A DNA stretch of 64,000 nucleotides from Fidelibacterota bacterium (GTDB lineage Bacteria > Fidelibacterota > Marinisomatia > Marinisomatales > TCS55), in NCBI GenBank assembly GCA_004124385.1, contig SCKN01000001.1, positions 62,001-126,000 of the forward strand, read 5' to 3'. A program made the position numbers and the translations under genes. Below the pieces are notes generated by a model. The model searched no databases. It saw only the letters and a program-made list of their open reading frames with translations, and had not been told where the DNA came from. Shown piece after piece: positions 1 to 43,900 of the stretch (position 1 is its first letter; every line of letters starts with the position of its first letter).

Positions 1-1
1 T

Positions 2-67
2 GTGTATCTATACAAAATACAGGCTGGAGAGTTTGTCCAGACCAGGAAGATGGTGCTGTTGAAATAA
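2..67 (+). CDS. C-terminal end of a T9SS cargo protein (partial)
   Basis: The contig opens inside a coding region; only its last 21 codons are present, ending in TAA. The translated tail (VYLYKIQAGEFVQTRKMVLLK, given here in parts: GEFVQTRKM then VLLK) is almost the same as the end of the secreted protein at 14378-16426 (GEFVQTKKM then VLMK). That is the last strand and basic end of the type A sorting domain recognised by the type IX secretion system. The product is therefore very probably an exported, cell-surface or released protein. Nothing can be said of its catalytic part, which lies off the window. Confidence 0.75.
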   Translation: MYLYKIQAGEFVQTRKMVLLK

Positions 68-90
68 CCCCCACCCAAAGGATTTAAGCA

Positions 91-121
91 AGAGCCCCGC
101 AGTAGCGGGGCTCTTTGTTTT
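91..121 (+). terminator. Rho-independent terminator
   Basis: A perfect 10-bp stem (AGAGCCCCGC with GCGGGGCTCT) closes a 4-base loop and is followed by TTGTTTT. It lies 24 bases after the stop of the preceding T9SS cargo gene and ends that transcript before the M28 peptidase gene. Confidence 0.9.
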
Positions 122-167
122 GTGCTATATTCATACCTGTTATTTACGCATAAATCAACCAGGGATC

Positions 168-1517
168 ATGAAGAAAGTTTTACTTTACATAGCTATAATA
201 TCTACATTTCTGTCAGCCGGAGAGATTGCTGATCAGTACGGCGCTGCTGCTGAAAAGATCATCCAAGCTGCATTAGAAAATGAGGCAGGCTTTGAGCGCC
301 TGGCAGAACTTTGTGATACATTTGGACCGCGATTTACAGGTTCACAAAATCTAGAAGATGCCATTGACTGGATTCTAAAAAAGATGGAGGAAGATGGTTT
401 ATCCAATGTCCATGGAGAAAAAGTGAAGGTGCCCCGCTGGGTACGTGGAAATGAATCACTTGAGTTACTTACTCCCCATAAAAAAGAAATGCATATTTTG
501 GGTTTAGGCGGAAGTGTAGGAACGCCTAAAAAAGGAATCAGGGGAGATGTATTTGTGGTGAGCAGTTTTGATAACCTTGAAGCCAATGCTGACAAAGCAA
601 AAGGGAAGATTGTTCTTTTCAATGTACCCTTTACGTCCTACAGAGAAACTGTTCAATATCGTCGAAGTGGAGCGATCGCCGCTTCTAATGCAGGTGCATT
701 GGCCAGTCTGATACGATCTGTTGGTCCTTATTCCATGAACACACCTCATACCGGGAATATGAGTTATGAAGATGGAGTGCGGAAAATTCCCCATGCTGCA
801 ATTACATTGGAAGATGCATCCATGTTTCAGCGCATCCAGGATAGAGGTGGAAAGATTATTGTAAAGTTGAAAATGGATGCCCATTATATTCCTGATGGCT
901 GGAGCAGAAATGTTGTTGCAGAATTGCGTGGTTCCGAATTTCCCGATGAAGTTATCGTTATGGGTGGACATATCGATTCCTGGGATGTGGGACAGGGTGC
1001 TATGGATGATGGCGGGGGATGTCTGGCTGCTTGGGAAGCATTGCGAATAATCAAAAAATTAGGTTTACAGCCCAAACGGACAATTCGTGTTGTTTTGTGG
1101 ACCAATGAGGAAAATGGAATCAGAGGTGGAAATGCCTATCGTGATGCACACCGGGATGAATTAGCTGATCATATTTTGGCAATAGAGTCCGATGCGGGTG
1201 TTTTTAGTCCACAAGGATTTGGTTTTACAGGCTCGGATGCAGCTCGTACAATTGTGAAGGAAATTGCTAAATTATTAGAGCCCATCGGTTCCAATGTAAT
1301 CGGTGAAAGCGGCGGCGGAGCCGATATTGGCCCCATTATGCGTGAGGGCGTTCCCGGAATGGGATTGAATGTAGATAGATCAAAGTATTTTTGGTATCAT
1401 CATACCAATGCAGATGCCATCGATAAATTAGATCAAGATGAATTTAACCGCTGTGTTGCCACGATGGCTATCATGGCATATGTTGTAGCAGATATGGATG
1501 AAAGATTACCACGATAA
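168..1517 (+). CDS. M28 family zinc peptidase (carboxypeptidase Q-like), exported
   Basis: Predicted exported aminopeptidase/carboxypeptidase of clan MH, about 449 residues. A signal peptide (MKKVLLYIAIISTFLSAG) follows the ATG at 168, which has an AGGGA ribosome site just upstream; an in-frame start further up would put 16 unsuitable residues ahead of it. A protease-associated-type insert precedes the catalytic domain. The two-zinc ligand set is visible: His268 (GGHIDSWD), Asp280 (MDDGGG), Glu314 and Glu315 (NEEN), Asp342 (ESDAG) and His411/412 (YHHTNAD). The family includes plasma glutamate carboxypeptidase. It probably trims peptides in the periplasm or outside the cell. The end of this gene is echoed at 6147-6209, on the other side of the ether-lipid cassette. 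Confidence 0.9.
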   Translation: MKKVLLYIAIISTFLSAGEIADQYGAAAEKIIQAALENEAGFERLAELCDTFGPRFTGSQNLEDAIDWILKKMEEDGLSNVHGEKVKVPRWVRGNESLELLTPHKKEMHILGLGGSVGTPKKGIRGDVFVVSSFDNLEANADKAKGKIVLFNVPFTSYRETVQYRRSGAIAASNAGALASLIRSVGPYSMNTPHTGNMSYEDGVRKIPHAAITLEDASMFQRIQDRGGKIIVKLKMDAHYIPDGWSRNVVAELRGSEFPDEVIVMGGHIDSWDVGQGAMDDGGGCLAAWEALRIIKKLGLQPKRTIRVVLWTNEENGIRGGNAYRDAHRDELADHILAIESDAGVFSPQGFGFTGSDAARTIVKEIAKLLEPIGSNVIGESGGGADIGPIMREGVPGMGLNVDRSKYFWYHHTNADAIDKLDQDEFNRCVATMAIMAYVVADMDERLPR

Positions 1518-1543
1518 TGCAAACACAAAACAAACTATTTTAA
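1517..1543 (+). pseudogene. Remnant of the start of an SDR gene
   Basis: Directly after the M28 stop, in a TAATG overlap, a 9-codon frame reads MQTQNKLF then stop. The intact SDR at 6209 also begins in a TAATG overlap with an M28 tail and reads MEIQNKTVLL. The match in both sequence and arrangement suggests a truncated copy of the SDR start. The stretch is short, so the call rests mainly on the parallel context. Confidence 0.5.
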
Positions 1544-1653
1544 TGACTTAGAGAAGTATCCTAAGTCCTATAAACAAAAAATGACCCCAAAAAACATTCT
1601 GTCCGTTTTTCTTTATTCTTTATTTTGGGTTTAAATCAAGTATATTCAATGCT

Positions 1654-2814
1654 ATGGCTAAACTAAAAAATAACAACAGATCAAAGATTCCCGGTGGTTA
1701 TCATTCCGATGATACAGGAAAGCGGATCACATGGATCGAGAAAAAGACAGGTTTCAATTACAAAGATATGCCGGTTAATAAATCCGAAGAGCTTAAGGGT
1801 ATAATAGAAAACCATATTGGGTATATGAAAATACCAATGGCGATCGCTGGCCCTCTGCAGTTGGATGGTCATTATGCAAAAGGTGAATTTTTTGTCCCCA
1901 TCTGTACTCTGGAAGGTACCCTGGCTATTTCCATGACCCGTGGCATGTATGCCTCTTCTCTTTCCGGTGGAATTCGGGTCCGCCATGTAAAACAGGAATT
2001 ATCCCGGGCGCCCGTATTCATTTTCGATAATTTGGACGATTCCATTGAATTCATAAGCTGGGTAGATGAGCATTATGACGATATTAAAAAAGTAGCTGAA
2101 TCCACGACCCAATATGGAAAACTGTTAAGGATTGATCAATACCCAGTCCAGAATTATGTTATTCTAGATATGGTCCTAAATACTGGAAATGCCGCCGGAC
2201 AGAATATGGTCACCTTGGCAGCCAAAGTCGCCTGCGACTACATTAAGGAACAAACCGGGCATGAATTTATTCTTGAGTCTGGTTTTAACAGTGATAAAAA
2301 AGCATCAGCCCGCAATATGATCATGGGACGGGGACACACCGTTTTAGCGGAGACCACCCTCACCCATTCTGTCATGAAACGGATCTTGGGGATTTATCCC
2401 AAGGATGTGGAAAAATTCCAGCAGTTAGGTCCCACCATCACCGCCATGGCCGGTACTTCAGGATGCCACCTCCATATTGCCAATGCACTTACTGCAATTT
2501 ATCTGGCTACCGGACAGGATACGGCCTGTGTAGCTGAAAATTCCATTGGCCATTTCCAGACTGAACCAGTGGATCACGGTATGAAATGCAGGCTGACCCT
2601 GCCCTCTCTCACGGTGGGAACCGTAGGCGGCGGCACCCGCCTCCTGCCCCAACAGCAAAATCTGGAATTGCTGGGATGTCAAAATGGTGAATATTCCTCC
2701 CGGAAACTGGCGGAGATTATTGGTGCATCCGCACTGGCATTGGAAATTTCCTTAATGTCCGCCATTGCTTCTGACACATTTGCCATGGCGCACATAAAAT
2801 ACGGTAGAAGGTAA
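1654..2814 (+). CDS. Hydroxymethylglutaryl-CoA reductase, class I type
   Basis: Reduces HMG-CoA to mevalonate with NADPH, the committed step of the mevalonate isoprenoid route. Diagnostic segments run in family order: ENHIGYMKIPMAIAGPL substrate region near residue 50, catalytic Glu87 (CTLEGT), NAAGQNM dinucleotide region, catalytic Lys215 (DKKAS), Asp289 (TGQDTACV), the GTVGGGTRLLPQQ loop and a C-terminal His380 (MAHIKYGRR). At 386 residues it is a soluble catalytic domain without a membrane anchor. The class I reading rests on these motifs. The stop abuts the plsC start, so it is the first gene of a four-gene operon with ether-lipid enzymes. The gene is clearly richer in G+C than its surroundings (about two thirds G+C in 2581-2640). 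No other mevalonate genes are in the window. Confidence 0.92.
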   Translation: MAKLKNNNRSKIPGGYHSDDTGKRITWIEKKTGFNYKDMPVNKSEELKGIIENHIGYMKIPMAIAGPLQLDGHYAKGEFFVPICTLEGTLAISMTRGMYASSLSGGIRVRHVKQELSRAPVFIFDNLDDSIEFISWVDEHYDDIKKVAESTTQYGKLLRIDQYPVQNYVILDMVLNTGNAAGQNMVTLAAKVACDYIKEQTGHEFILESGFNSDKKASARNMIMGRGHTVLAETTLTHSVMKRILGIYPKDVEKFQQLGPTITAMAGTSGCHLHIANALTAIYLATGQDTACVAENSIGHFQTEPVDHGMKCRLTLPSLTVGTVGGGTRLLPQQQNLELLGCQNGEYSSRKLAEIIGASALALEISLMSAIASDTFAMAHIKYGRR

Positions 2815-3561
2815 ATGAAGCAGGCAAACGTTCTTGAGAATCCTGAATATTCCTATTTGATCAAGAAACAATCCGTCTTTTTCCGTATCTGGAAAAAACT
2901 TTTCTACCTGTACAGTAAATTTGTTTTTCTCTGGTACACACCCTTAAAGGTCTATGGCCGGGAAAATATTCCCGATAAATCTTTCATTTATTCCTGCAAC
3001 CATAACAGCCATATGGATGTAGCCTTGCTGGCGGCATCCGTTAACAAAAGTTTCAATTATTTCGGTATGCTGGCAGCAAAGGACTACTGGTTTGATAACT
3101 GGATCAAACGATTCCTGGTTAATATAGTCATGAACTTGGTTCCTATTGATCGCAAAGTAGAGGGGGGTCGGGATTTTCCCATAGAAGACACACTCACTCT
3201 CTGTAGTGCTTTCATGACTTTTGACAATAGAAACTTGATCATGTTTCCCGAAGGAACCAGGGGCAATCCTGGTGTTATGGGCAGTTTCAGGCAAGGGACA
3301 GCCATGTTCGCACTGCGACTTAATGTTCCTATTTTACCCGCGTTGATTGTAGGTTCCCATAAAGCTTGGCCCAAGGATAAAATTTTTATGAGGCCTACCC
3401 GTATTCAGGTACACATCCTGAAACCCCTTTATCCAGATCAATTCATTAATAGTGGCAAAATAGAGGATTCCACAGAGGAAAACCTGATCAAAAAGGCCCA
3501 GGATATGACCGCAGAATTGGAGAAACGAATCCGTGAAAAAGGAAAAATATTCTATGGATAA
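2815..3561 (+). CDS. PlsC-type 1-acylglycerol-3-phosphate / DHAP acyltransferase
   Basis: Membrane-associated acyltransferase of the lysophosphatidate/glycerophosphate family, 248 residues. The catalytic NHNSHMD block (His63, Asp68) and the phosphate-binding FPEGTRG block (144-150) are both present. A hydrophobic N-terminal stretch (residues 20-42) probably lies in the membrane surface. The start codon follows the HMG-CoA reductase stop without a gap, and the end overlaps the alkyl-DHAP synthase start. In this context it could acylate dihydroxyacetone phosphate to supply the synthase, or add the sn-2 chain after reduction; the sequence alone does not decide. Confidence 0.88.
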   Translation: MKQANVLENPEYSYLIKKQSVFFRIWKKLFYLYSKFVFLWYTPLKVYGRENIPDKSFIYSCNHNSHMDVALLAASVNKSFNYFGMLAAKDYWFDNWIKRFLVNIVMNLVPIDRKVEGGRDFPIEDTLTLCSAFMTFDNRNLIMFPEGTRGNPGVMGSFRQGTAMFALRLNVPILPALIVGSHKAWPKDKIFMRPTRIQVHILKPLYPDQFINSGKIEDSTEENLIKKAQDMTAELEKRIREKGKIFYG

Positions 3562-5326
3562 ACAGCATAAACCCAAGACTGAAAAATTCTTTGCCGACAC
3601 TCATACAACATGGGGACATAAATGGGGTTACAAGGATACTAAATTCATCCTCAATGAGGATCGCTCAGTCCGAATGGTGGGTGACCGGTATGAGTTGTGC
3701 GGATCGGATATGCCTGATTTCATACCTTATGTTGAGGAAATGCTGGATATCACCATTGACCCCAATGACAGGCTTTCTGAGATTGAAAACAAACCGATTA
3801 GGGAACCCAACATCAATGAAAAATTTGTGGAGCAGGTTAAATCTACATTTCCAGAGGACCGCTACACCTTTAGTGACGATGACCGTTTGATTCACAGCCA
3901 TGGACAAACTACATCGGAAGAGGTGTATAAGATTCTTTATTCTGAGATCAGCCGCAACGTGGATATGGTGTTTTACCTGGAATCGGAGGAAGAAGGTGTT
4001 AAGCTTATTAATCTGGCAAAGCAGTTCGATGTGTGCCTCGTCCCCTTTGGTGGCGGAACCAGCGTAAGCAGTGCCCTGCAAATTCCTGAATCTGAAACTC
4101 GGATGGTTGTGGCCATGGATACCCGCCGCATGGACAAGATCGAATGGATCAATGAAGAGGACCGCCGGGTCTGTGTTCAGGCCGGGATCACCGGCAGCCG
4201 TTTGGAAGAATTACTGGGCGAACAGGGATTTACTGTCGGCCATGAACCAGATAGTATTGAGCTTTCGACCCTAGGCGGCTGGATTGCTACCAATGCCAGC
4301 GGGATGAAAAAGAATCGCTACGGTAATATTGAGGACATTGTTGAAAATGTGACCATGGTTTCACCCAATGGAAAAATCGAGCAGGTGGATCCAATCACCC
4401 GGGCATCCATTGGCATAACGCCTCAAAATATTTTATTCGGGTCCGAGGGCAACTTGGGCCTGATCACAAAAGCTATCTTAAAACTTCATAAAAAACCGGA
4501 CTTGAAAAAATACAATTCAGCTGTATTTCCAGACTGGGAGACGGGAGTCAAATTCCTTTATGAACTTTCGAAGACCAGTTTTATACCAGCCAGTGTCCGC
4601 CTCGTGGATAATGTCCAGTTTCGTTTTGGCCAGGCATTGAAGCCTAAATCCGAAGGAATAAAAAAGTACATTGACAACCTGAAAAAATTCATGGTCATTA
4701 ATATAAAGGGATTTGACCCTTATCAAATGTGTGCGTCTACTTTTGTCTTGGAAGGGTCCCGGGAAGAGGTGGCATACCAGGAAAAGAATATAGCAAAATT
4801 GACCCAGGCACACGGTGGGCTCTTCGGCGGTTCGGAGAATGGAAAGCGGGGCTACATGTTAACCTTTGCTATTGCCTATGTTCGCGATTTCCTCACCGAT
4901 TTCTACATCATTGGAGAAACCATGGAAACCTCGGTTCCCTGGAGCAAGATCCATGCGACCTGTCAGGCGGCCTCTCAAAAACTTATCGAACTCCACAGAA
5001 AACATAAGTTCCCGGGAATTCCCTACATGTCCTATCGAATTCCCCAGATTTACCACACCGGCGTTTGTATCTATTTTATGCTGGGAATGAGTGTGAAGGG
5101 AATTTCACATGCGGAAGATGTATTTGGATCTATTGAACATGAAATACGGAAAGTGATCATGGAAAATGGCGGTTCGATTTCTCACCATCATGGCGTAGGA
5201 AAATTGCGGAAGGATTTCATGGCCGACACCTTATCGCAATCCAGTATTGACCTGATTAAGAATATCAAAAAAGTTCAAGACCCAAAAAATATTTTTGGGA
5301 TTGGAAATAATGTATTCGCTGATTAG
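3554..5326 (+). CDS. Alkyldihydroxyacetonephosphate synthase (AGPS-like FAD enzyme)
   Basis: Exchanges the acyl chain of acyl-DHAP for a long-chain alcohol and so creates the glycerol ether bond. The similarity to animal AGPS is extensive: N-terminal WGHKWGYKDTKF, FAD-binding PFGGGTSVS (164-172), ITGSRLE, GHEPDSIE (229-236), NRYGNIEDIV, LFGSEGNLG and RGYMLTFAIAYVRD. Residues that match the human active site are kept: Arg349 (PASVRLVDN, human Arg419), Tyr500 (human Tyr578) and the His544-546 cluster in SHHHGVGKLRK. The start at 3554 overlaps the plsC end by 8 bases and has AAGGAA upstream; a GTG at 3533 is an alternative. Plain FAD oxidases such as GlcD lack the HHH and Tyr features. Local G+C reaches about 63% (4141-4200). 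Confidence 0.9.
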   Translation: MDKQHKPKTEKFFADTHTTWGHKWGYKDTKFILNEDRSVRMVGDRYELCGSDMPDFIPYVEEMLDITIDPNDRLSEIENKPIREPNINEKFVEQVKSTFPEDRYTFSDDDRLIHSHGQTTSEEVYKILYSEISRNVDMVFYLESEEEGVKLINLAKQFDVCLVPFGGGTSVSSALQIPESETRMVVAMDTRRMDKIEWINEEDRRVCVQAGITGSRLEELLGEQGFTVGHEPDSIELSTLGGWIATNASGMKKNRYGNIEDIVENVTMVSPNGKIEQVDPITRASIGITPQNILFGSEGNLGLITKAILKLHKKPDLKKYNSAVFPDWETGVKFLYELSKTSFIPASVRLVDNVQFRFGQALKPKSEGIKKYIDNLKKFMVINIKGFDPYQMCASTFVLEGSREEVAYQEKNIAKLTQAHGGLFGGSENGKRGYMLTFAIAYVRDFLTDFYIIGETMETSVPWSKIHATCQAASQKLIELHRKHKFPGIPYMSYRIPQIYHTGVCIYFMLGMSVKGISHAEDVFGSIEHEIRKVIMENGGSISHHHGVGKLRKDFMADTLSQSSIDLIKNIKKVQDPKNIFGIGNNVFAD

Positions 5327-5340
5327 ATACACATATAAAA

Positions 5341-6144
5341 TTGAACCTATCTGAAAAAACGTTTATCGTCACGGGCGCTTCGTCCGGAATCGGTGAAATC
5401 CTTTCAAAAAAGCTGGCGCAAAAAGGAGCCCATGTGGTATGTGCTGCCCGCTCTGCGGATAAACTGGACAGGGTTATCACAGGAATCAAATCTAATGGCG
5501 GTACCGCAATGTCCGTACCCACTGATATCACCGATCTGCTCCAATGTCAATCTTTAGTTAAAAAAACCATCGAACGATTTGGGAAACTGGATGTGCTTGT
5601 TTTGAATGCAGGGATCAGCATGTGGACCTCTTTCGAAGAATTGAATGATGTGAGTTTTTTCCGACAGTTAATGGAGACGAACTACATGGGCGCCGTCCAT
5701 TGCTGTCATGCCGCCATACCGCATTTAAGGTCCGGCGGGCTAATTGTCAGCTGTTCTTCAGCACAAGCTCTCATGGGATTTCCATATCATTCCGGATATG
5801 CCGCATCGAAACATGCTCTTCATGGATTCCTGGAGTCTCTGGATATTGAAATGCGGGGTGAGATCAACTTTCTTGAAGTGATAATGGGCTGGATCCGGGA
5901 TACGGAATTGAGGCATAACGCTTTAGGTTCTGACGGGCAAAAAATGGGAGAAAATAAACGGAAACACACCAGCCAATCTGTAACCCTGGACGATTGTACG
6001 GAAGCTATTATTGCCGGAATTAAAACAAATAAAAAAACAATTTATATCCCTGGGAAACTGCGCTGGGTTCCGTTTTTGAATGTTTTTTTTAAAGCATTTT
6101 TAAGACGGAAGGTCTTAAAAACAGTGGATGACAATATGGAATGA
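5341..6144 (+). CDS. SDR oxidoreductase, candidate acyl/alkyl-DHAP reductase
   Basis: Classical short-chain dehydrogenase of 267 residues. It has the TGASSGIG nucleotide-binding loop near residue 11, an NAGIS segment, and the Ser...GYAASK active site (Tyr and Lys spaced as YxxxK). A hydrophobic and basic C-terminus could attach it to the membrane. It starts with TTG 14 bases after the alkyl-DHAP synthase stop, so it is the last gene of the cassette. The missing step after AGPS is reduction of alkyl-DHAP, done in animals by an SDR (DHRS7B/PexRAP). That makes this the natural candidate, but substrate assignment is by context only. Confidence 0.8.
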   Translation: MNLSEKTFIVTGASSGIGEILSKKLAQKGAHVVCAARSADKLDRVITGIKSNGGTAMSVPTDITDLLQCQSLVKKTIERFGKLDVLVLNAGISMWTSFEELNDVSFFRQLMETNYMGAVHCCHAAIPHLRSGGLIVSCSSAQALMGFPYHSGYAASKHALHGFLESLDIEMRGEINFLEVIMGWIRDTELRHNALGSDGQKMGENKRKHTSQSVTLDDCTEAIIAGIKTNKKTIYIPGKLRWVPFLNVFFKAFLRRKVLKTVDDNME

Positions 6145-6146
6145 GT

Positions 6147-6209
6147 GTGGCAACTATGGCTATTATGGCTTATGTTTTAGCCGCTATGGATGAACGCTTA
6201 CTACGCTAA
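6147..6209 (+). pseudogene. C-terminal remnant of an M28 peptidase gene
   Basis: Just after the SDR stop, 20 codons read VATMAIMAYVLAAMDERLLR then TAA. The M28 peptidase at 168-1517 ends with VATMAIMAYVVADMDERLPR. Most base changes are in third codon positions, so the two tails diverged while both were under protein-level selection, and the second copy was truncated afterwards. The remnant stop overlaps the next SDR start in TAATG. Confidence 0.85.
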
Positions 6210-7009
6210 TGGAAATACAAAATAAAACAGTTTTACTGACCGGTGCTTCAAGAGGAATTGGTCCGTATATTGCTAAAACGTTAGCCAATGCAGGAGCTGT
6301 GCTCATTGGTTTGGCTCGTTCTGAAGAGGGACTCAATACAACAAAAGCTGAAATAGAATATGAGGGTGGTACTTTTCATACTATATCATTTGATTTAAAA
6401 AATATTAATGGTTTATCAGACCTTGTTGAACAAGCAACAACAATCAATGGCGAAATTGATATTTTGGTGAACAATGCCGGTATTGAACTATGCAGGAAAT
6501 ATCAAAATTATTCTGCCGATGAAATTCGTGATGTACTGAATGTAAATCTTCATGCACCTCTGGAACTCTCTCGCTTACTACTACCAGCTATGTTAGAAAG
6601 AGGAGGACACATTGTAACGGTGGCATCATTAGCCGGGAAAAAAGGTATGGCGTACAATACACCTTATTCTGCCAGTAAGGCCGGACTGATTATGTGGACG
6701 GACGGCATGCGCCAGGAATTGCGCGGAACAAAAGTAGGTATTTCAGTGATTTGTCCTGGATTCATTTCGGATACGGGAATGTTCTACGAAGACCATGTGG
6801 ATCCACCGGCTATGTTGGGTACATCCAAACCACAAGCAGTGGCTGATGCTGTCATAAAAGCCATTAAGAATAACAGTGCCGAAATCATTGTGAATAAAGG
6901 ACCCATGAAACCACTTTTGGCAATCGGTCAAATATCTCCATCATTTGGCGATAAAATTGTTCGCAAATTTGGAGTTATAGAGTTTAATAAAAAGCGGATC
7001 AAAAAATGA
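6209..7009 (+). CDS. SDR family oxidoreductase
   Basis: Short-chain dehydrogenase of 266 residues: TGASRGIG nucleotide loop at residues 11-18, NNAGIE near residue 90, and active site Ser with YSASK about residue 154-158. Its codon use is AT-rich like the rest of the window and unlike the SDR of the ether-lipid cassette. Its start overlaps the stop of the M28 remnant, implying that it once followed a full M28 gene. It overlaps the next gene by ATGA, so the two form an operon. The substrate is unknown; a lipid or steroid-like alcohol is possible. Confidence 0.85.
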   Translation: MEIQNKTVLLTGASRGIGPYIAKTLANAGAVLIGLARSEEGLNTTKAEIEYEGGTFHTISFDLKNINGLSDLVEQATTINGEIDILVNNAGIELCRKYQNYSADEIRDVLNVNLHAPLELSRLLLPAMLERGGHIVTVASLAGKKGMAYNTPYSASKAGLIMWTDGMRQELRGTKVGISVICPGFISDTGMFYEDHVDPPAMLGTSKPQAVADAVIKAIKNNSAEIIVNKGPMKPLLAIGQISPSFGDKIVRKFGVIEFNKKRIKK

Positions 7010-8070
7010 AGGTATTAAAACTTATAGGCACCCTTTTAGCATTATTAATTCTGTATTTATGTTTCTGGCCTATAGATATTGATCCTGTTGCTTGGGAGCC
7101 GCCTGTTGATTCTGGTTTAATTGGAGTATATGCACCAAATACGTATTTGGCAGATGTTGAAATCTTTGGAATCGGAGATGGAATAGGCCCGGAAGATATT
7201 GATATTGATAGCGAAGGACGAATTTACGCACCATATGAAGGAGGTCGTATTGTGCGTTATGATGCCGACGGTAAAAACCCAGAATTATTTGTAGACACCG
7301 GAGGTCGGCCCTTAGGTCTAGAATTTGATGCAGCAGGGAATTTGATTATTTGTGATGCCATTAAAGGACTCCTATCTGCGAATCCGGATGGGAAAATAAT
7401 AACTCTAGCTACAGAAGCGAATGGTGTCCACTTCGGATTTACGGATGATGTGGATATTGCTAATGATGGAATCATATATTTTTCGGATGCATCGTATCAT
7501 TGGGCTATTAAAGATTACAGATCTGATATAATAGAACACGTTCCATACGGTCGATTAATTGCTTATGATCCTCATACGAAAGAATCGACAGTTTTATTGG
7601 ATGATTTGTATTTTGCAAATGGTGTTGCAGTGAGTACAGATCAATCCTTTGTATTGGTGAATGAAACATCTGAATATAGAATTCAAAAAGTATGGATTAG
7701 TGGCGAAAAAGCTGGGCAGTCAGAAATATTGATGGAAAACTTACCTGGGATTCCTGATGGAATTTCATCAAATGGTAAAGGAATATTTTGGGTAGCATTT
7801 CCATCAAAACGTAAGGAAATTTTAGATAATTTAGCCGGAAAACCATTTGTACGGAAGATGGTTATGCGTTTACCTGAATCAATGCAGCCGGCACCGGACC
7901 ATTATGGTTTTATCATTGGAATTGATGGCGATGGCAATATAATTCATAATTTTCAAGATCCCAGCCCAGAATCATTTTCTCCTATCACAAGTGTAGAAGA
8001 ACATGAAGGATTTTTATTTTTGGGCAGTTTAACCTATGAAGGCTTCGGAAGAATTAAAGCGCCTGACTAA
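7006..8070 (+). CDS. Strictosidine-synthase-like / APMAP-type six-bladed propeller lactonase
   Basis: A 354-residue protein with an N-terminal membrane anchor (residues 4-22) and a six-bladed beta-propeller of the strictosidine synthase-like group (related to SMP-30, APMAP and paraoxonase). Characteristic blades are seen: GPEDIDIDSEGRIY, DDVDIANDGIIYFSDAS, FANGVAVSTDQSFVLVNE followed by YRIQKVWISG, and LPGIPDGIS. Known relatives are calcium-dependent lactonases or esterases rather than true strictosidine synthases. The active domain should face the periplasm. It is translationally coupled (4-base overlap) to the preceding SDR. The actual substrate cannot be read from sequence. Confidence 0.85.
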   Translation: MKVLKLIGTLLALLILYLCFWPIDIDPVAWEPPVDSGLIGVYAPNTYLADVEIFGIGDGIGPEDIDIDSEGRIYAPYEGGRIVRYDADGKNPELFVDTGGRPLGLEFDAAGNLIICDAIKGLLSANPDGKIITLATEANGVHFGFTDDVDIANDGIIYFSDASYHWAIKDYRSDIIEHVPYGRLIAYDPHTKESTVLLDDLYFANGVAVSTDQSFVLVNETSEYRIQKVWISGEKAGQSEILMENLPGIPDGISSNGKGIFWVAFPSKRKEILDNLAGKPFVRKMVMRLPESMQPAPDHYGFIIGIDGDGNIIHNFQDPSPESFSPITSVEEHEGFLFLGSLTYEGFGRIKAPD

Positions 8071-35534: not shown

Positions 35535-36389
35535 ATGACACCTTCACGTGGTCAGACAGATGCAGAACGTGGTTTTATAATTCCCATTGGCGGAGCTGTA
35601 AGAAAGCGCAGGAATCCAGTAATTTTAGAACAATTTCTGGAAATTTGTGGTGGAAAGAATGCAGTAATTGCTGTAATCCCGACTGCAACTAAAGTGGAAG
35701 AGAACGGAAAAGTGTATTCAGAATTGTTTTCAGCAATGGGAGCATCCAAAGTAATATGTTTGAATATCAATAAACGTACAGATTGCAATAGGGATGACTA
35801 TTTATCGCAAATAGAAGAATCAACAGGCATTTTCATTTCGGGTGGAAATCAATTAAGACTTTCCACGATTCTTGGTGGTACGCCAATCGCAAAATTGATT
35901 CGTAGGTTGAATGCAGACGGCGTTCATATAGCTGGGACATCAGCAGGAGCTGCTATTCTACCCGAACATATGATATCCGGCGGTCGTAGCGGTAGTACAC
36001 CTACTCCAAGAAGTGTTTCATTGACTCCTGGATTAGGATTGACAAACAGTATTGTTATAGACCAGCATTTCCGTCAGCGAGATCGCTTGGGTCGTATTCT
36101 GGCAGCTATCGCTTACAGCCCATTTCTTACTGGAATTGGAATTGATGAAAATACTGCAGCATTTATTGCACCCAATAATATATTTACAGTGTTTGGCAGT
36201 GGTGCTGTAACTGTAGTGGATCCAAGTGAAATGAAAGCGACTTCAGCGAGCATAGCAGACCCCGGTGATGCTATCAGCATTGCAAATGTTAAACTACACG
36301 TTCTGGCTGCCGGTTCAACATATAATCTTAATACACATACCGCAAAAATACTCGATTCTGATTTTGTAACTCTGTCAGTTAATAAATAA
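35535..36389 (+). CDS. cphB: Cyanophycinase
   Basis: Serine exopeptidase of family S51 that cuts the Asp-Arg polymer cyanophycin into beta-Asp-Arg dipeptides. GFIIPIGGAV at the start, FISGGNQLRL, the nucleophile Ser136 in AGTSAGAAIL and the DQHFRQRDRLGRI segment are diagnostic. At 284 residues it is full length. It lies 21 bases upstream of cphA in the order common to heterotrophic cyanophycin loci. A perfect inverted repeat covers its stop codon. Confidence 0.94.
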   Translation: MTPSRGQTDAERGFIIPIGGAVRKRRNPVILEQFLEICGGKNAVIAVIPTATKVEENGKVYSELFSAMGASKVICLNINKRTDCNRDDYLSQIEESTGIFISGGNQLRLSTILGGTPIAKLIRRLNADGVHIAGTSAGAAILPEHMISGGRSGSTPTPRSVSLTPGLGLTNSIVIDQHFRQRDRLGRILAAIAYSPFLTGIGIDENTAAFIAPNNIFTVFGSGAVTVVDPSEMKATSASIADPGDAISIANVKLHVLAAGSTYNLNTHTAKILDSDFVTLSVNK

Positions 36390-36397
36390 CTGACAGA
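36371..36397 (+). promoter_or_regulatory. 11-bp inverted repeat over the cphB stop codon
   Basis: TCTGTCAGTTA and TAACTGACAGA pair perfectly around a 5-base loop. The cphB stop lies in the second arm, and the cphA ATG follows 13 bases later. There is no T-run, so this is not a standard terminator. It may set the ratio of degradation to synthesis enzyme by protecting or processing the message. Confidence 0.55.
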
Positions 36398-36410
36398 ATC
36401 GGAGAATATA

Positions 36411-39206
36411 ATGAATATTATTTCTACCAACGTTTATGTAGGGCCAAATGTGTACGCTCGATTTCCAGTCATTCGACATGTTTTGGATCTTGGAATTTTG
36501 GAGGATTGGCCAACAGCAAAATTAGGGAAGCAATATATAGAAAGTCTAATTGAACGATTGCCTGGGTTGTCCGAACACGGCTGTTCTTATGAAACTTCAG
36601 GCGGTTTTATTCGCCGCCTCAAAGAAGATGAAGGGACTTGGTTGGGTCATGTTATGGAACATGTTGCTATCGAGTTACAGAATATTACCGGATCAAAAGT
36701 GACCTTTGGAAAAACACGTTCAACGGATATCAAAGGTCAATATAATATGGTATTTCAGTATGTTCAGCGCGATGTGGGAATTGCGGCAAGTAGATTAGCT
36801 CAACAAATATTACTAGATCTTTTACCTGAAGATTTAAAAAGTAAAATCAGCAATGTCAGTTCTGATTTCAATTTTGAGAATGAACGAGATGATTTTATCC
36901 GTTTGGCTCATCGATTTGAGTATGGACCCAGTACTGCATCTTTACTTGATGCAGCTAAAGAACGTGATATTCCTGCTATGCGCTTGAACCAATATAGTTT
37001 GGTACAATTTGGTCAGGGAAAATATCAGAAACGGATTCAAGCCACTATTACAAGTGAAACAAAACATATAGCTGTTGAGATCGCCAGTGATAAAGATGAT
37101 ACAAATACACTCTTAAATGATTTGGGCATACCGGTGCCTATTCAGAAGTTAGTTTATAACGATAATGCAGCAGTTCGAATGGCAAACCATATTGGCTATC
37201 CTGTTGTTTTGAAACCGCTAAATGCAAATCACGGGCGTGGCGTTACCATCAACTTGACAGAAGATGATCAAGTTCGCAAAGCATTTAAAATTGCTCGTGA
37301 ACGCGGGTCATCCAGAGGTGTGTTAGTGGAAAGTTTTATAACAGGTTTGGATCATCGTATGTTGGTCGTAGATGGAAAACTCATTGCAGTTGCTAAGCGC
37401 GTTCCGGGTCATGTAGTTGGAGATGGAAAACATTCAATCCAAGAATTGATCAATATTGTCAATTCAGATCCCAATCGCGGAATTGGTCATGAAAAGGTAT
37501 TGACTAAAATCCAAGTTGATCACCAAGCAGAACGATTAATGAAAGCCAAGGGTTATGAATTATCGACTGTGCTAAAAAAAGATGAAAAATTATTTTTACG
37601 TTCCACAGCTAATTTATCTACGGGTGGAACATCTATCGATATGACGGATGTGGTTCATCCAGATAACCGTTCCATGGCAGAAAGAGCCGTAAAAGCAATT
37701 GGATTAGATGTGGGTGGGGTTGATTTTTTGACCGATGATATAACTCGATCATATCGAGAAATTGGTGGTGCTATTGTGGAAGTGAATGCCGCACCCGGTT
37801 TTAGAATGCACGTTGCACCAAGTGAGGGTGAACCCCGAGATGTAGCTGGACCAGTCATGGATATGTTATTTCCAAATGCATCACCAAGCAGAATTCTAAT
37901 TGCAGCCATAACCGGGACAAATGGTAAAACCACGACAACTCGAATGTTAGCTCATATTATGAAAACAGCTGGGCATACAGTAGGATTTACAACAACTGAT
38001 GGAGTTTATATTGATGGTCATCTTACTATGAAAGGTGATATGACCGGACCCAAGAGTGCGCAAATGGTATTACGTGATCCGGATGTGGATGTGGCTGTTC
38101 TCGAGACTGCCCGAGGCGGAATTGTTCGCAGTGGTCTCGGATATGAACGTAGTAATGTAGCCGCATGTTTAAATGTTTCATCTGACCATCTGGGTTTGAG
38201 GGGCATTGATACTTTAGAACAATTAGCTGAAGTAAAACGAGTGGTAGTTGAAACTGCGACAGATACAGCCGTTTTGAATGCGGATGATGAATATTGCTTA
38301 CGTATGGCTGATTATACGAAAGCAGAGCATCTTTGTTACATTACGATGAATCCGGGACATGAGTTAGTAAAACAGCATATCCAAGCGGGTGGCAAAGCAG
38401 TCGTTCTTGAAAAAGGTATTAATGGTGATATGATCACATTCTATGCTAATGGTGCACATATACCCTTGATATGGACGCATCTTATTCCGGCAACCTTGGA
38501 AGGAAAAGCTGTGCATAATGTACAAAATGCCATGTTTGCAGCTGCTCTAGCATATAATATGAATAAGGAATTGGATGATATTCGCCATGGTTTGCAGACC
38601 TTTACCCAAACATTTTTTCAAGCACCGGGTAAAATGAATATTTTTGAAGAGCATCCTTTTAAAGTTATGTTGGATTATGCTCATAATCCTGCTGCCGTTC
38701 GAGCCATATCTGAATTATGCAGTAAGCTGGAAGTGAGCGGAAAGCGTATTGCTGTTATTTCCGCCCCTGGAGATCGCAGGGATGAAGATATAAAAGAAAT
38801 CGCTGCAATAGCTGCACCTTACTTTGATCATTTTATTTGTAAAGCAGACGATAATCGTAGAGGAAGAGGGGAAGATGAAATACCTCAACTTCAGAAAAAT
38901 TCCTTAATCGATAATGGTATTGATAAATCAAAGATTAATATTATTGCTGATGAATCCTATGCAGTAGATGCAGGGCTAAAAATGGCTGAAGAAGGTGATT
39001 TGCTTTTAATACTCGGTGATGATATAACAAGATGTTGGAAACAAATAGTCCATTTTAATGCAGAGAATACGGTACCCGCAACAACGCCAACTAAAGGACA
39101 TACAAGTAATTCAGCAATTGAGGATTATCAATTTGAAATTGAAGAAGGTCAAAAAATTATCCAAGATGAACGCGGTGTACGTCTTGCCAAAGAAGAATCT
39201 GACTAA
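36411..39206 (+). CDS. cphA: Cyanophycin synthetase
   Basis: Builds multi-L-arginyl-poly-L-aspartate, a nitrogen and carbon store, using two ATP per Asp-Arg unit. 931 residues: N-terminal domain with the HVMEHVAIELQ motif; ATP-grasp domain from about 210 to 480 (VVLKPLNANHGRGVTINL, EVNAAPGFRMH) that adds Asp; Mur ligase domain with P-loop GTNGKTTTT (502-510), LETARGGIVRSGLGYE and DYAHNPAAV that adds Arg. The C-terminus is some 40-60 residues longer than usual cyanobacterial forms and ends in a charged tail. Its stop overlaps the next Mur ligase start. Confidence 0.95.
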   Translation: MNIISTNVYVGPNVYARFPVIRHVLDLGILEDWPTAKLGKQYIESLIERLPGLSEHGCSYETSGGFIRRLKEDEGTWLGHVMEHVAIELQNITGSKVTFGKTRSTDIKGQYNMVFQYVQRDVGIAASRLAQQILLDLLPEDLKSKISNVSSDFNFENERDDFIRLAHRFEYGPSTASLLDAAKERDIPAMRLNQYSLVQFGQGKYQKRIQATITSETKHIAVEIASDKDDTNTLLNDLGIPVPIQKLVYNDNAAVRMANHIGYPVVLKPLNANHGRGVTINLTEDDQVRKAFKIARERGSSRGVLVESFITGLDHRMLVVDGKLIAVAKRVPGHVVGDGKHSIQELINIVNSDPNRGIGHEKVLTKIQVDHQAERLMKAKGYELSTVLKKDEKLFLRSTANLSTGGTSIDMTDVVHPDNRSMAERAVKAIGLDVGGVDFLTDDITRSYREIGGAIVEVNAAPGFRMHVAPSEGEPRDVAGPVMDMLFPNASPSRILIAAITGTNGKTTTTRMLAHIMKTAGHTVGFTTTDGVYIDGHLTMKGDMTGPKSAQMVLRDPDVDVAVLETARGGIVRSGLGYERSNVAACLNVSSDHLGLRGIDTLEQLAEVKRVVVETATDTAVLNADDEYCLRMADYTKAEHLCYITMNPGHELVKQHIQAGGKAVVLEKGINGDMITFYANGAHIPLIWTHLIPATLEGKAVHNVQNAMFAAALAYNMNKELDDIRHGLQTFTQTFFQAPGKMNIFEEHPFKVMLDYAHNPAAVRAISELCSKLEVSGKRIAVISAPGDRRDEDIKEIAAIAAPYFDHFICKADDNRRGRGEDEIPQLQKNSLIDNGIDKSKINIIADESYAVDAGLKMAEEGDLLLILGDDITRCWKQIVHFNAENTVPATTPTKGHTSNSAIEDYQFEIEEGQKIIQDERGVRLAKEESD

Positions 39207-40891
39207 TGAAAATTGTTGATACTCGTCGCATTACAGGGCCGAGTTTATTTACAGATGTTTCCGGCGCAATGCTGGATATTGATATTCCCAATTTCCGCCA
39301 TGATGATTTTCTTCAGGTGTGGGGACAGACCGTTCAATACGTTTTAAATGGCGTTGGTTGGAGTAAAGAGTTAACAAAAACAAGATGCTATAATGACGGC
39401 ATAAGCTTATTTATTTCCGCTCCTATTGATGCTCTATATGCAGCATGTGCTGTCAATGAAATTGTTTTTGATTTAACACTTTTAGTATTAAATGGGGGAG
39501 AGCTTTTTCTAAATCCAGACAAGTATGCAGAATTAAAAAAAGAAATCGCTGATGAGTTGAATCCTGATTTAATCGAATTAAATAATGCGGCTGAATCACG
39601 AAATGTTCGTTTTTTGCAATCGGATGATATTGTTTCTGTCGGAACAGGTACAGGATCTCACCAATTTTCAGTAGACACTATTCCCACTTCTGATTCAATA
39701 GATTGGGAAAATGTCCATGATGTGAGAGTCGTTCTTATTACAGGAACGAATGGTAAATCAACCACAGTTAGATTACTGGAATCGATGATGACTCAAGCAG
39801 GAATAAAGACCGGCGCATCGTCAACGGATGGAATACGCGTCAATATGGTAACGGTTGAAGCGGGAGATTATTCTGGTCCGGAAGGAGCACGGGCAACATT
39901 ACGGAATAACGAAGTTGAAACTGCTATACTCGAAGTTGCGCGAGGAGGAATGCTTCGTAGAGGGTTGCCAGTAATGAATGCGCAAGCTGCTATTATTACA
40001 AATGTAGCTGAAGATCATTTTGGTGATTATGGTGTGAATTCATTGGACGATATGGTTGCAACTAAATTTGTAATAGACCAAGGATTAGCAGAAGATGGTA
40101 TTTTGGTCTTGAATGCTGATGATATTAAAATAGTAAAGTATGCCCAATATATTACTCATGAAATATGTTGGTTTAGTCTAGATTCATCGAATCAAACTGT
40201 TGTAGAGCATATTAAAAAGGGTAATAGAGCATGTATTCTAGAGGATGATAAAATTGTTTATTACAGAAATGGAAAAAAAATCATTTTGATTGATTATCAT
40301 CAAATCCCATTAACGATGAATGGAGCAGCCGTTTATAATATTTCAAATTCATTGGGTGCAGTCGCATTGGCAAAATCTTTGGATATTGAGGATGAACATA
40401 TTATAAATAGTTTAAGTGAATTTGGTAATTCAAATGATGATAATCCGGGACGAGCGAATATTTACTATAAAAATGGAATGACAATATTATTGGATTTTGC
40501 TCACAATCCCCACGGCATGGATGCTTTAGCAAAACTCGTAAATAATATATCTGCAAACCGAAAAATATTGATGATTGGCCAAGTGGGTGATCGTAGTAAT
40601 GAAGATATAGATAATCTTGTTAATTCTGCTGCAAAAATTAATCCTGACAAAGTTATCATTTCAGAAATTGTTAATCGTTTAAGAGGTCGAGAAGTGGGTG
40701 AAATCCCCGCTTTAATAACTCAAAGTTTTAAAAATAATGATATATCTGAAGATGCAATGATATATAGTGATGATATGTTGGCAGGAGTAAAGAAATCTCT
40801 GGAGATTGCTGAAGAAGGTGACTTATTGGTTTTATTATGCTTGGATCAAAAGAAAGAAATTCTTCAATTTATAAAAAATGAAATAGATTAA
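39206..40891 (+). CDS. CphA-like Mur ligase without ATP-grasp domain
   Basis: 561 residues. The N-terminal 150 or so form a domain I cannot name (ITGPSLFTDVSGAMLD, IDALYAACAVNEIVFDL). From about 170 it is a Mur ligase close to the second half of cyanophycin synthetase: P-loop TGTNGKSTTVR (Lys184), LEVARGGMLRRGLP, DFAHNPHGMDALAK and VGDRSNEDI. Its start overlaps the cphA stop by one base (TAATGA), so the two are co-translated. It cannot make the polymer alone, as no Asp-adding ATP-grasp domain is present. It may modify the polymer, add a different residue, or assist CphA. Active-site motifs look intact. Confidence 0.85.
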   Translation: MKIVDTRRITGPSLFTDVSGAMLDIDIPNFRHDDFLQVWGQTVQYVLNGVGWSKELTKTRCYNDGISLFISAPIDALYAACAVNEIVFDLTLLVLNGGELFLNPDKYAELKKEIADELNPDLIELNNAAESRNVRFLQSDDIVSVGTGTGSHQFSVDTIPTSDSIDWENVHDVRVVLITGTNGKSTTVRLLESMMTQAGIKTGASSTDGIRVNMVTVEAGDYSGPEGARATLRNNEVETAILEVARGGMLRRGLPVMNAQAAIITNVAEDHFGDYGVNSLDDMVATKFVIDQGLAEDGILVLNADDIKIVKYAQYITHEICWFSLDSSNQTVVEHIKKGNRACILEDDKIVYYRNGKKIILIDYHQIPLTMNGAAVYNISNSLGAVALAKSLDIEDEHIINSLSEFGNSNDDNPGRANIYYKNGMTILLDFAHNPHGMDALAKLVNNISANRKILMIGQVGDRSNEDIDNLVNSAAKINPDKVIISEIVNRLRGREVGEIPALITQSFKNNDISEDAMIYSDDMLAGVKKSLEIAEEGDLLVLLCLDQKKEILQFIKNEID

Positions 40892-40935: not shown

Positions 40936-43900
40936 ATGAAGCGTGCCCTCTCTGTCTTCTCCGTACTGCTTATTGTCCTCATTGCGTCCGCTTCTACTGT
41001 ATCAACACGTTACTATTTAACCGATTTAGACTTTATCAGTGATCAACCGGTCCCCGAATCAGCTACTCGATTTAAACCCCATATCAGCGCTGATTATGAT
41101 GAATATAATCATATTATTAAAAAGCTGAATATTGATCGTAAGGGTGAGATAAATCAAACAGAAATCTATTCTTACGACTCTCTAGGCGATTTACGAAGTA
41201 AAGATATTTATTTATCAGTAAATGAACTTGATCAGCAAGTGTTGTTTGGTATGGAGTCTAAAGCAGTTGATTATATTGAATATGTTTATGGTGTCGATAC
41301 TGTCAAAGATTGGACGGATCGATTTTCTATTCTGGACTATAATGATCTGATTCAATTAACCAACCACGCTTTTTTTGATGTAAATGCATTTCAATATGGT
41401 AATGCACATTATGAATATGATTCTCTGGGTTATTTGTCAAAAGAAGAGTGGATTCGCCAACCATCTGGTAAAACGATGCGTTGGTGGAATCATTATTTTG
41501 ACCCAGCAACAAACCTTACTCGCATTATGGAATATGACTCCAATGGTGTGTTGGTGCAGGATTTTCGCTTAAGTCCTGATAGCACCGAGTCAATCTTCTG
41601 GTTTACCGACTTGAATGATTCTACATATGTAAATCAAACCAACATGTCTTTCAAGAATGGGAGTTATTTGAAATGGGGGAAAGTAATTTGGTATAGACTG
41701 GATGTTTCTGGTGCATATGTTGATTCTGTCCAATTCAATTTGTCAAAGAGATTTTTGCAAAAAGGCAGTTTCGAAACCAATATGGGTCTCGATTCTGCAT
41801 TGGTAGACAGTGCGATGTACGACATTGTTTTTAAAGGTAAGGGTAAGAGTGGTTATGATGCTACACAACGAAAAATATTGGGTGTTACATTTGATATTTC
41901 ACCGCCCATTATGGACTTATTTGCCAAGCCGTTTATTAATGAGCCTAAAATTTCTTATGATCAATCTGAAGATCTAGCTGCAGCAAGAATTGAGTGGCAC
42001 GCAATTCATGATTCTTCATCAATAATTTCAGTAGAATTTGATTCAAGTGATTTGTCGATGTTTGGAGGAGGATTGTTTAAACCGCTAAATCAAGTGGATT
42101 TACAGGATAGTATTTTTTACAGAGTTGAAATTTATGGAATAGATTTTGCTGGTAATATTTCATTTCCGGCAATTATTGATTCAATAATGTTTGATATTAC
42201 TCTTCCTGGGGTTGAGGTCATTTCACCGCTTCATTCTGAATATAGAAATTTTACTACAATTGATTGGACAATTGATGAGCCCATCCAATCTTGGAAAATG
42301 GATGTCAAATCCATTGCCGGTAAACCAGATTATTATGCTCCTCATTCATTTCAAAGCGATTCTTCATTGTTTATGGATGTTTCAATGTTCAAAGAATTAT
42401 CTGATGAATTTCAACTGAATGATGGCACTGTGTACCGTTTTGAATTGTCTGTCATAGATCGTGCCGGAAACACTTCGACGGTCTTTGAAGTAGATTCAGT
42501 TACTTACGACATAACTCCGCCGCTATTGACAACAATATACCCGGCAACTGGAGATTCAATTAATATAACCACAGTATCTTACTCTATAAATGAACCGTTG
42601 CGAGCTGGTGAATTCCGCTGGGAGCAGACAGAGGGCACCATGGATTCATCAGCTCCACATATTATTCCTTTGATTGGGGAGGAATTACATAGCGGAGATC
42701 ATATTCAAATACAATTGAATAACCAATCAGACTTGAAAGATGGTTCAGTATATACATTATTGTTTGCAGGTATGGATCGTGCGGGCAATGTCGGGGAATT
42801 TTTACCAAACACTGATATACTTTTTGATGCTATGCCGCCAGAGTTTACAGACATTATGCCTTATACTAATTCCGCATTGAACCATCAGCATATTTCTTAT
42901 ACTCTATCAGAAAAAGTAAATACTGGTTCCATAACATGGTCATGGATAGGTGGGGTAATAGATAATGCGGCACCCCACAGGTCTCAATTCTTAAATGCAG
43001 AATATGAGGGAGGTGTGCATGATTCACTTTTATTATCCATGAATCCACCGCTTGTAGATGGTGGTATTTATAATTTGGAATTCAATGCTTCCGATCGGGC
43101 AGGTAATATTGCAGAAACATATTACATCGAAAATGTTTTATATGATTTTACTAGCCCAGTCATGTTTTTATCTTATCCATCAGCAATGTCTTTTTTGCCC
43201 AATAAAATTTTTCAATACACTTTGTCTGAAAATATTGAAGAAGGGGAATTTTTATTAGAAAGAAAAGGTGGAAAAGAGGACCCTAAATCACCCTACATTA
43301 TTCGACTAACGACAAAAGAAAAGTCTGGTGGGATACATGATAATGTGCAATTACTTTTCATGCCTGATGTTGTAGAAGGATCTATATATAAATTATCATT
43401 CAAAGGGTTTGACAGAGCAGGGAATTACACTTTCCCGATAACTTTACCTGGGATACAATATGATTTCAGAATGCCTGAATTAACTCTATTAAGCCTTCCT
43501 GACAGTACGGACATTAACTATTTATTTATCAGTTATGATTTAAGTGAAATCTTAAAAGAAGCCGATATTACTTGGGAGCGTACAGGGGGCGCAGTTGATT
43601 CAAAACACATACATAAACAATCATTATTAGACAACGAGATGCTTGCCGGTGTTCATATTAAAACACACATTTTCAATACGCCCAATTTAACAGATGGTTC
43701 TGTCTATTCTATTTCTATTTCAGGAAAAGATAGAGCTGGTAATGAATCCAATATCTCCATAGCACGAAAGATTCGATACGACATTACTGCACCTGAAATT
43801 GAGATGAGCTTTCCCTTTGATAGAACGTATATCTCTACACCGGCAATATCCTACAGCTTAAATGAAAAACTCTCCCAAGGAAAAATAATATATAATCATA

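Follow-up and report, generated by a model that had tools for sequence, protein, structure and literature searches.

The window analysed here is a stretch of 64,000 nucleotides from a genome assembly of 2.09 Mb (96.8% complete), whose named relatives are Candidatus Neomarinimicrobiota (Marinimicrobia), mainly marine assemblies. Four plus-strand open reading frames at positions 1654-6144, abutting or overlapping, form a single operon. The first (1654-2814; 386 residues; PF00368, 334 bits) encodes a homologue of class-I HMG-CoA reductase (HMGR), which we consider a putative FcrA-like fatty acyl-CoA reductase. The second (2815-3561; 248 residues; PF01553, 67.7 bits) encodes a PlsC-type acyltransferase, proposed to act on DHAP (or on alkyl-G3P), the third (3533-5326; 597 residues; FAD_binding_4 and FAD-oxidase_C) an alkyl-DHAP (alkylglycerone phosphate) synthase, AGPS, and the fourth (5341-6144; 267 residues; adh_short PF00106, 161 bits; TTG start) an SDR proposed to be an NADPH-dependent alkyl-DHAP reductase. 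The PlsC frame starts at the base right after the stop codon of the HMGR-like gene; the AGPS and PlsC frames overlap, the AGPS start being either GTG 3533 or ATG 3554, inside ATGGATAA; and 14 bases lie between AGPS and the SDR start. An earlier note on this DNA had placed the acyltransferase, AGPS and SDR in one operon behind an HMG-CoA reductase gene, and the four contiguous frames bear this out, with exact coordinates. Scans for promoters and terminators gave matches no more numerous than in shuffled sequence.

The arrangement HMGR-PlsC-AGPS-SDR, identical in order and strand, recurs in some 45 further genomes from the phylum, far beyond chance, and is kept wherever the contig permits, with a sole exception in content (locus L062). 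Among the 245 genomes of our phylum survey, 54 carry a close AGPS and 52 a class-I HMGR-like gene, all 52 lying within those 54 (52/54 versus 0/191 of the others; Fisher test, 2e-51). Counted by genus, the HMGR-like gene accompanies AGPS in 18 of 19, as against none of the other 65 (Fisher test, 2e-17). The two AGPS genomes without it are G140, a fragment, and G193, whose locus L062 has a FAR instead. The HMGR-like gene is a member of the cassette.

Insertion of the four genes

A genome of the same genus, G107, has the corresponding site without the cassette. On its contig L271 the gene for an M28 peptidase is followed at once by a second SDR gene (SDR2) and a strictosidine-synthase-like gene, and neither AGPS nor PF00368 was found in this genome. 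Window positions 95-1519 align to L271 1095-2520 and window positions 6145-7670 to L271 2454-3979; the two alignments overlap on L271, which means that the insert is flanked by a duplication of about 67 bases. The original copy is the 3'-terminal part of the gene for the M28 peptidase (1452-1519, plus strand). The second, directly 3' of the cassette SDR and adjoining the older neighbour SDR2, repeats the final 20 codons of that gene in decayed form (6145-6211, plus strand; VATMAIMAYVLAAMDERLLR versus VATMAIMAYVVADMDERLPR).

The inserted segment (1520-6144, the left boundary being approximate) holds exactly the four cassette genes, whose GC3 is 0.44-0.50, against 0.25-0.33 in the flanking genes. 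This base composition favours gain over loss, that is, a discrete insertion acquired horizontally; a precise loss of the cassette from G107, the two repeats having recombined, is the less favoured explanation. Whichever the direction, the unit is exactly the four cassette genes. We also considered the M28 peptidase gene (120-1517), SDR2 (6209-7009) and the strictosidine-synthase-like gene (7006-8070) as cassette members and rejected them, since in G107 these genes adjoin one another with no cassette between them; they are linked to it within the genus only.

The synthase, the acyltransferase and the dehydrogenase

The AGPS of the window matches guinea-pig AGPS (4bby) with 498 bits (E 2.8e-148) and 41% identity over 561 positions, and Dictyostelium AGPS with 280 bits, whereas D-lactate dehydrogenases, glycolate oxidase and similar enzymes score at most 86 bits. 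Its residues H237, R356, Y514 and H551-H553 correspond to guinea-pig H300, R419, Y578 and H615-617, which are kept in every cassette AGPS that we compared and in close relatives from other phyla. In a tree of 43 sequences it groups with other Neomarinimicrobiota (support 100/100); the bacterial sequences together form a clade to which guinea-pig AGPS is the sister (97/96), Dictyostelium AGPS branching outside both, a placement to be read with caution as the branches are long. The tree covers AGPS and AGPS-like sequences; the lactate and glycolate oxidases were compared by score. The earlier note's description of a close homologue of animal AGPS with the active-site Arg, Tyr and His residues agrees with these results. 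Judged by its sequence, the protein is a genuine AGPS, and its candidacy as a lactate or glycolate oxidase is rejected on scores, residues and tree. The protein has no N-terminal peroxisomal targeting part, its residue 29 aligning to guinea-pig residue 94.

The assignments of the two neighbouring enzymes come from their position. The cassette SDR has the motifs TGASSGIG, NAG and YAASK, scores above the cut-off of NF004825 and is conserved beside AGPS; family membership does not give its substrate, and its place in the operon suggests a role as alkyl-DHAP reductase. Likewise, the position of the PlsC-type protein suggests that it may acylate DHAP. It shares the superfamily PF01553 with GNPAT but has PlsC motifs (NHNSHMD, FPEGTR) and resembles LPAAT, not GNPAT; its closest solved structure is PlsC 5kym (E 5e-16). 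These features would also suit a cassette that makes ether lipids but whose PlsC acts at sn-2 of alkyl-G3P, in the role of LPAAT, with acyl-DHAP coming from, for example, a promiscuous PlsY, and the host genome does have PlsY and four further PF01553 genes. Yet those other PF01553 acyltransferases could themselves serve sn-2, and the cassette, which moves as a unit, would then miss its own first committed step. We regard the LPAAT role as a serious but lesser possibility and retain DHAP acylation as the preferred assignment.

The HMGR-like gene and its replacements

FcrA, described by Grossi et al. (2025, PMC11948995), is a class-I HMGR homologue that retains the HMGR catalytic residues Glu559, Lys691, Asp767 and His866, reduces acyl-CoA of at least C14 with NADPH, but not HMG-CoA, and is insensitive to simvastatin. 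It is marked by three substitutions in human numbering: Ser684 to Glu, Lys735 to another, mostly small, residue and Leu862 to Trp or a bulky aromatic residue (PMC11948995). The Lys is printed as 795 in that paper, but 735 is the position consistent with its Natronomonas numbering, in which Gly411 lies between Lys367 and Asp441. The HMGR-like protein of the window keeps the catalytic residues (E87, K215, D289, H380) and has E208, Gly and F376 at the three marked positions. We aligned it and 47 cassette HMGRs (48 rows) against human and archaeal HMGR. All 47 keep K691, D767 and H866, and also E559 bar one X in the sequence; R590 and D690 are likewise kept in all aligned cassette HMGRs. Position 684 is Glu in 43 and Asp in 5 of the 48 rows, and position 862 is Phe in 27 and Trp in 21; position 735 is never Lys but G, F, Y, L, A or S, with F or Y, bulkier than PMC11948995 describes, in about half of the rows. 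The corresponding residues are E/A/W in Chloroflexota FcrA, including that of Promineifilum, the genus of the assayed enzyme, and S/K/L in human, Arabidopsis and Methanothermococcus HMGR. The cassette form does not have the N-terminal alkyl-carrier domain, Lad, of the assayed Promineifilum enzyme (386 residues in the window, versus 514 with PF25653 in locus L127), a domain found in certain FcrA only and so not strictly defining. Cassette FcrA and Promineifilum FcrA share only about 38% identity, and our HMGR tree (FcrA clade support 65/61; alternative p-AU 0.196) neither demonstrates nor rejects FcrA monophyly.

The same operon slot is occupied by other reductases elsewhere. Locus L062 (genome G193) reads FAR-PlsC-AGPS-SDR, with a classical FAR (PF07993, 219 bits, and PF03015) directly upstream of PlsC. 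In L163, from another lineage, a FAR is followed by a gene of 652 residues, AGPS and SDR; the 652-residue protein has acyltransferase-like motifs, read by eye, and no Pfam match. The AGPS tree places L062 as sister to the FcrA-bearing L060 and L163 as sister to the FcrA-bearing L075 (both 100/100), so the reductase has been exchanged at least twice beside a conserved AGPS. A cyanobacterial locus (L107, Planktothrix) has a FadD-acyl-CoA dehydrogenase-ACP-reductase fusion and then PlsC-AGPS-SDR. This sharing of one slot by unrelated acyl reductases is the strongest sequence evidence for the function that the slot would have. No FAR was found elsewhere in the host genome, where PF07993 matches reach at most 49 bits, versus 219-222 for real FARs; these weak matches lie in frames of about 300-356 residues, which we read as nucleotide-sugar epimerases.

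The host genome also offers little for an HMGR to act upon. HMG-CoA synthase (PF01154) had no match there, while the control matched in 7 genomes; dxr, of the MEP pathway, is present; and the cassette gene is the one PF00368 gene. An HMG-CoA reductase would thus be left without an evident substrate. Each gene absence reported here for the host genome rests on one family search, and that of the mevalonate pathway on PF01154 and one further gene family. Matches to HMG-CoA synthase in relatives (at most 37 bits, mostly in frames of about 330-400 residues) were read as KAS III-like and rejected as evidence of a mevalonate pathway. A real mevalonate locus, in the single other PF00368 genome of the survey (G023), is quite unlike the cassette: it carries a fusion of class-II HMGR with mevalonate kinase next to a gene recognised by eye as phosphomevalonate-kinase-like, and the genome has no AGPS. 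The FcrA-type residues, the lack of an HMG-CoA synthase match and the filling of the slot by FAR in related operons together point to the HMGR-like gene as the fatty-alcohol supply. It is probably an FcrA-type fatty acyl-CoA reductase, and the earlier note, in which only this supply was missing from the window, appears to have overlooked it.

FcrA has been characterised in wax-ester producers, Natronomonas pharaonis and Ca. Promineifilum breve (PMC11948995), and the cassette enzyme might accordingly be thought to supply fatty alcohol chiefly for wax esters, with a secondary link to AGPS. This we consider very unlikely, given that FcrA occurs in the phylum only together with AGPS and directly in its operon. 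The cassette FcrA has in common with those two enzymes the catalytic residues, the three substituted positions and a genome in which no mevalonate pathway was found; the characterised form differs in having an N-terminal Lad domain and, in P. breve, an AGPS nine genes away (PMC11948995), where the cassette enzyme is short and lies in the AGPS operon. Slightly less credible still is the reading of the earlier note, an ordinary isoprenoid HMG-CoA reductase that stands by chance before an ether-lipid operon: Pfam and NCBIfam do give that name and the catalytic residues are intact, but the protein scores below the NCBIfam HMGR cut-off (284 versus 442 bits), the substrate residues K735, S684 and L862 are missing, the gene is tied to AGPS across the phylum and exchanged for FAR in related loci, and the genome has dxr and no HMG-CoA synthase match, so that we reject a genuine mevalonate HMGR.

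Proposed pathway and related systems

We propose that FcrA, with its HMGR fold, would reduce long-chain acyl-CoA to fatty alcohol with 2 NADPH, and that the PlsC-type enzyme would acylate DHAP to 1-acyl-DHAP. AGPS, with FAD, would then exchange the acyl chain of 1-acyl-DHAP for the fatty alcohol to give 1-alkyl-DHAP, and the SDR would reduce the ketone with NADPH to 1-alkyl-G3P. This product could enter the ordinary phospholipid pathway, in which another of the cell's PlsC enzymes would acylate sn-2. What the sequences show directly is which genes are present and in what order, how they are conserved, the residues of the active sites, the swaps of the reductase and the insertion; every catalytic activity in the host organism we infer, the AGPS and FcrA steps being the most secure and the exact substrates of PlsC and SDR the least. 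We put at roughly 0.8 the probability that the cassette is a self-contained, horizontally acquired operon encoding the committed steps in the synthesis of alkyl ether phospholipids. The fuller statement, that this transferable four-gene module may carry the whole committed animal-type route with an HMGR-derived reductase replacing FAR, we hold to be likely, with somewhat less assurance. We give very little credence to the idea that the synthase is a different FAD enzyme, an oxidase with no ether product: lactate and glycolate oxidases do share its superfamily, but it keeps all catalytic AGPS residues, including the Arg and Tyr altered in the solved variants 4bc7 (R419H) and 4bca (Y578F), and the tree places it with animal AGPS, apart from the more distant AGPS-like proteins found in the phylum (L080-L083, about 30% identity), which fall outside and have no cassette.

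The proposed reaction sequence is that of the animal peroxisomal pathway (FAR1, GNPAT, AGPS, DHRS7B/PexRAP), whose order is reviewed in PMC9131029; DHRS7B and DHRS7 are reported as alkyl-DHAP reductases (PMC13200781). AGPS is homologous between the two, at about 41% identity, but the cassette has an unrelated FcrA for FAR1, a PlsC-type acyltransferase, an AGPS without the N-terminal targeting part, and no organelle. The term 'peroxisome-type' used in the earlier note therefore holds by analogy only, as the cassette reductase is unrelated to FAR1 and the acyltransferase closer to PlsC than to GNPAT; the accompanying proposal of ether phospholipid synthesis from DHAP is consistent with the operon content, although it had left the HMGR-like gene out of the cassette. 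In Myxococcus xanthus, MXAN_1676-1675-1674 encode AGPS, a fusion of FAR1-like and GNPAT-like domains, and an epimerase/dehydratase (PMC9131029). In both operons an AGPS of similar identity to the animal enzyme is accompanied by a fatty acyl reductase and an acyltransferase, fused in Myxococcus but encoded separately here as an HMGR-fold FcrA and a PlsC, beside another type of SDR. Loss of MXAN_1676 lowers ether lipids only slightly (PMC9131029). The anaerobic PlsA/PlsR and Ger systems also make bacterial ether lipids but belong to another enzyme family, and no HGD-D protein was found in the host genome. The plasmalogen desaturase PEDS1/CarF (PF10520) had no match, an uninformative result since the control likewise matched in no genome.

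AGPS in the phylum (homologues in 49 of 134 Black Sea MAGs of Marinisomatota; PMC11868695), FAR-acyltransferase-AGPS operons in Myxococcus, and FcrA, including the suggestion that some FcrA feed ether-lipid synthesis (Grossi et al. 2025, PMC11948995), were already known. In the open-licence literature we met no description of an FcrA-PlsC-AGPS-SDR operon, of how widely it occurs or of its insertion. Across 18 genera of this widespread marine phylum FcrA and AGPS lie in a single operon, compared with nine genes apart in the example of Grossi et al. The shared operon, the FAR in the same slot and the empty site allow their suggestion to be tested directly with four short genes. If our reading is correct, FcrA would serve ether-lipid rather than wax-ester synthesis in this phylum, annotations of 'class-I HMG-CoA reductase' in Neomarinimicrobiota would be wrong, and alkyl ether lipids in ocean water would have a plausible bacterial origin in this phylum. 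The placement of animal AGPS as sister to the bacterial enzymes in our tree also bears on the origin of the animal enzyme.

Boundaries of the cassette

We observed that approximately 67 bp of the 3' end of the M28 peptidase gene, the upstream neighbour of the cassette, is present twice, flanking the cassette (downstream copy at window 6145-6211), and that a cassette-free site is found in the genus mate G107 (contig L271, 2440-2540). The second SDR and the strictosidine-synthase-like/SMP-30 gene (window 6209-8070) are kept across the genus in the absence of the cassette, and are the older neighbours of the M28 gene. The insertion locus is adjoined by a dispersed repeat, window 1-120, copies of which (about 80-92% identical) lie on a single short G107 contig (L222, G107:C4) at 1263, 2282, 3675 and 4576.

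Related operons and a mevalonate-type reductase

A short contig of the Anaerolineae MAG MT_MAG13 (L115) bears the cassette, and its FcrA is 95% identical to that of a Neomarinimicrobiota MAG; the contig is either a recent transfer or mis-binned. In Planktothrix paucivesiculata (L107, 2228-11472), the gene for a 1670-residue FadD-acyl-CoA dehydrogenase-ACP-reductase fusion stands ahead of those for PlsC, AGPS, SDR and a CTP transferase, in that order; the group is likely a cyanobacterial ether-lipid cluster. At L163, a 652-residue protein (5823-7781) lies between FAR and AGPS; Pfam gave no match for it, and acyltransferase-like motifs are found close to its C-terminus. In G023, a genome of the same phylum in which AGPS is absent, a single 758-residue frame at L170 fuses a class-II HMG-CoA reductase to mevalonate kinase, adjoined by a phosphomevalonate-kinase-like gene.

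Other genes in the window

Judging from translations only, window 35535-40891 holds a cyanophycinase-like frame (284 residues) that directly precedes two cyanophycin-synthetase-like frames (931 and 561 residues). A secreted-looking protein of 2830 residues (window 40936-49428) is made up, by eye, of many similar repeats of about 70-90 residues each.
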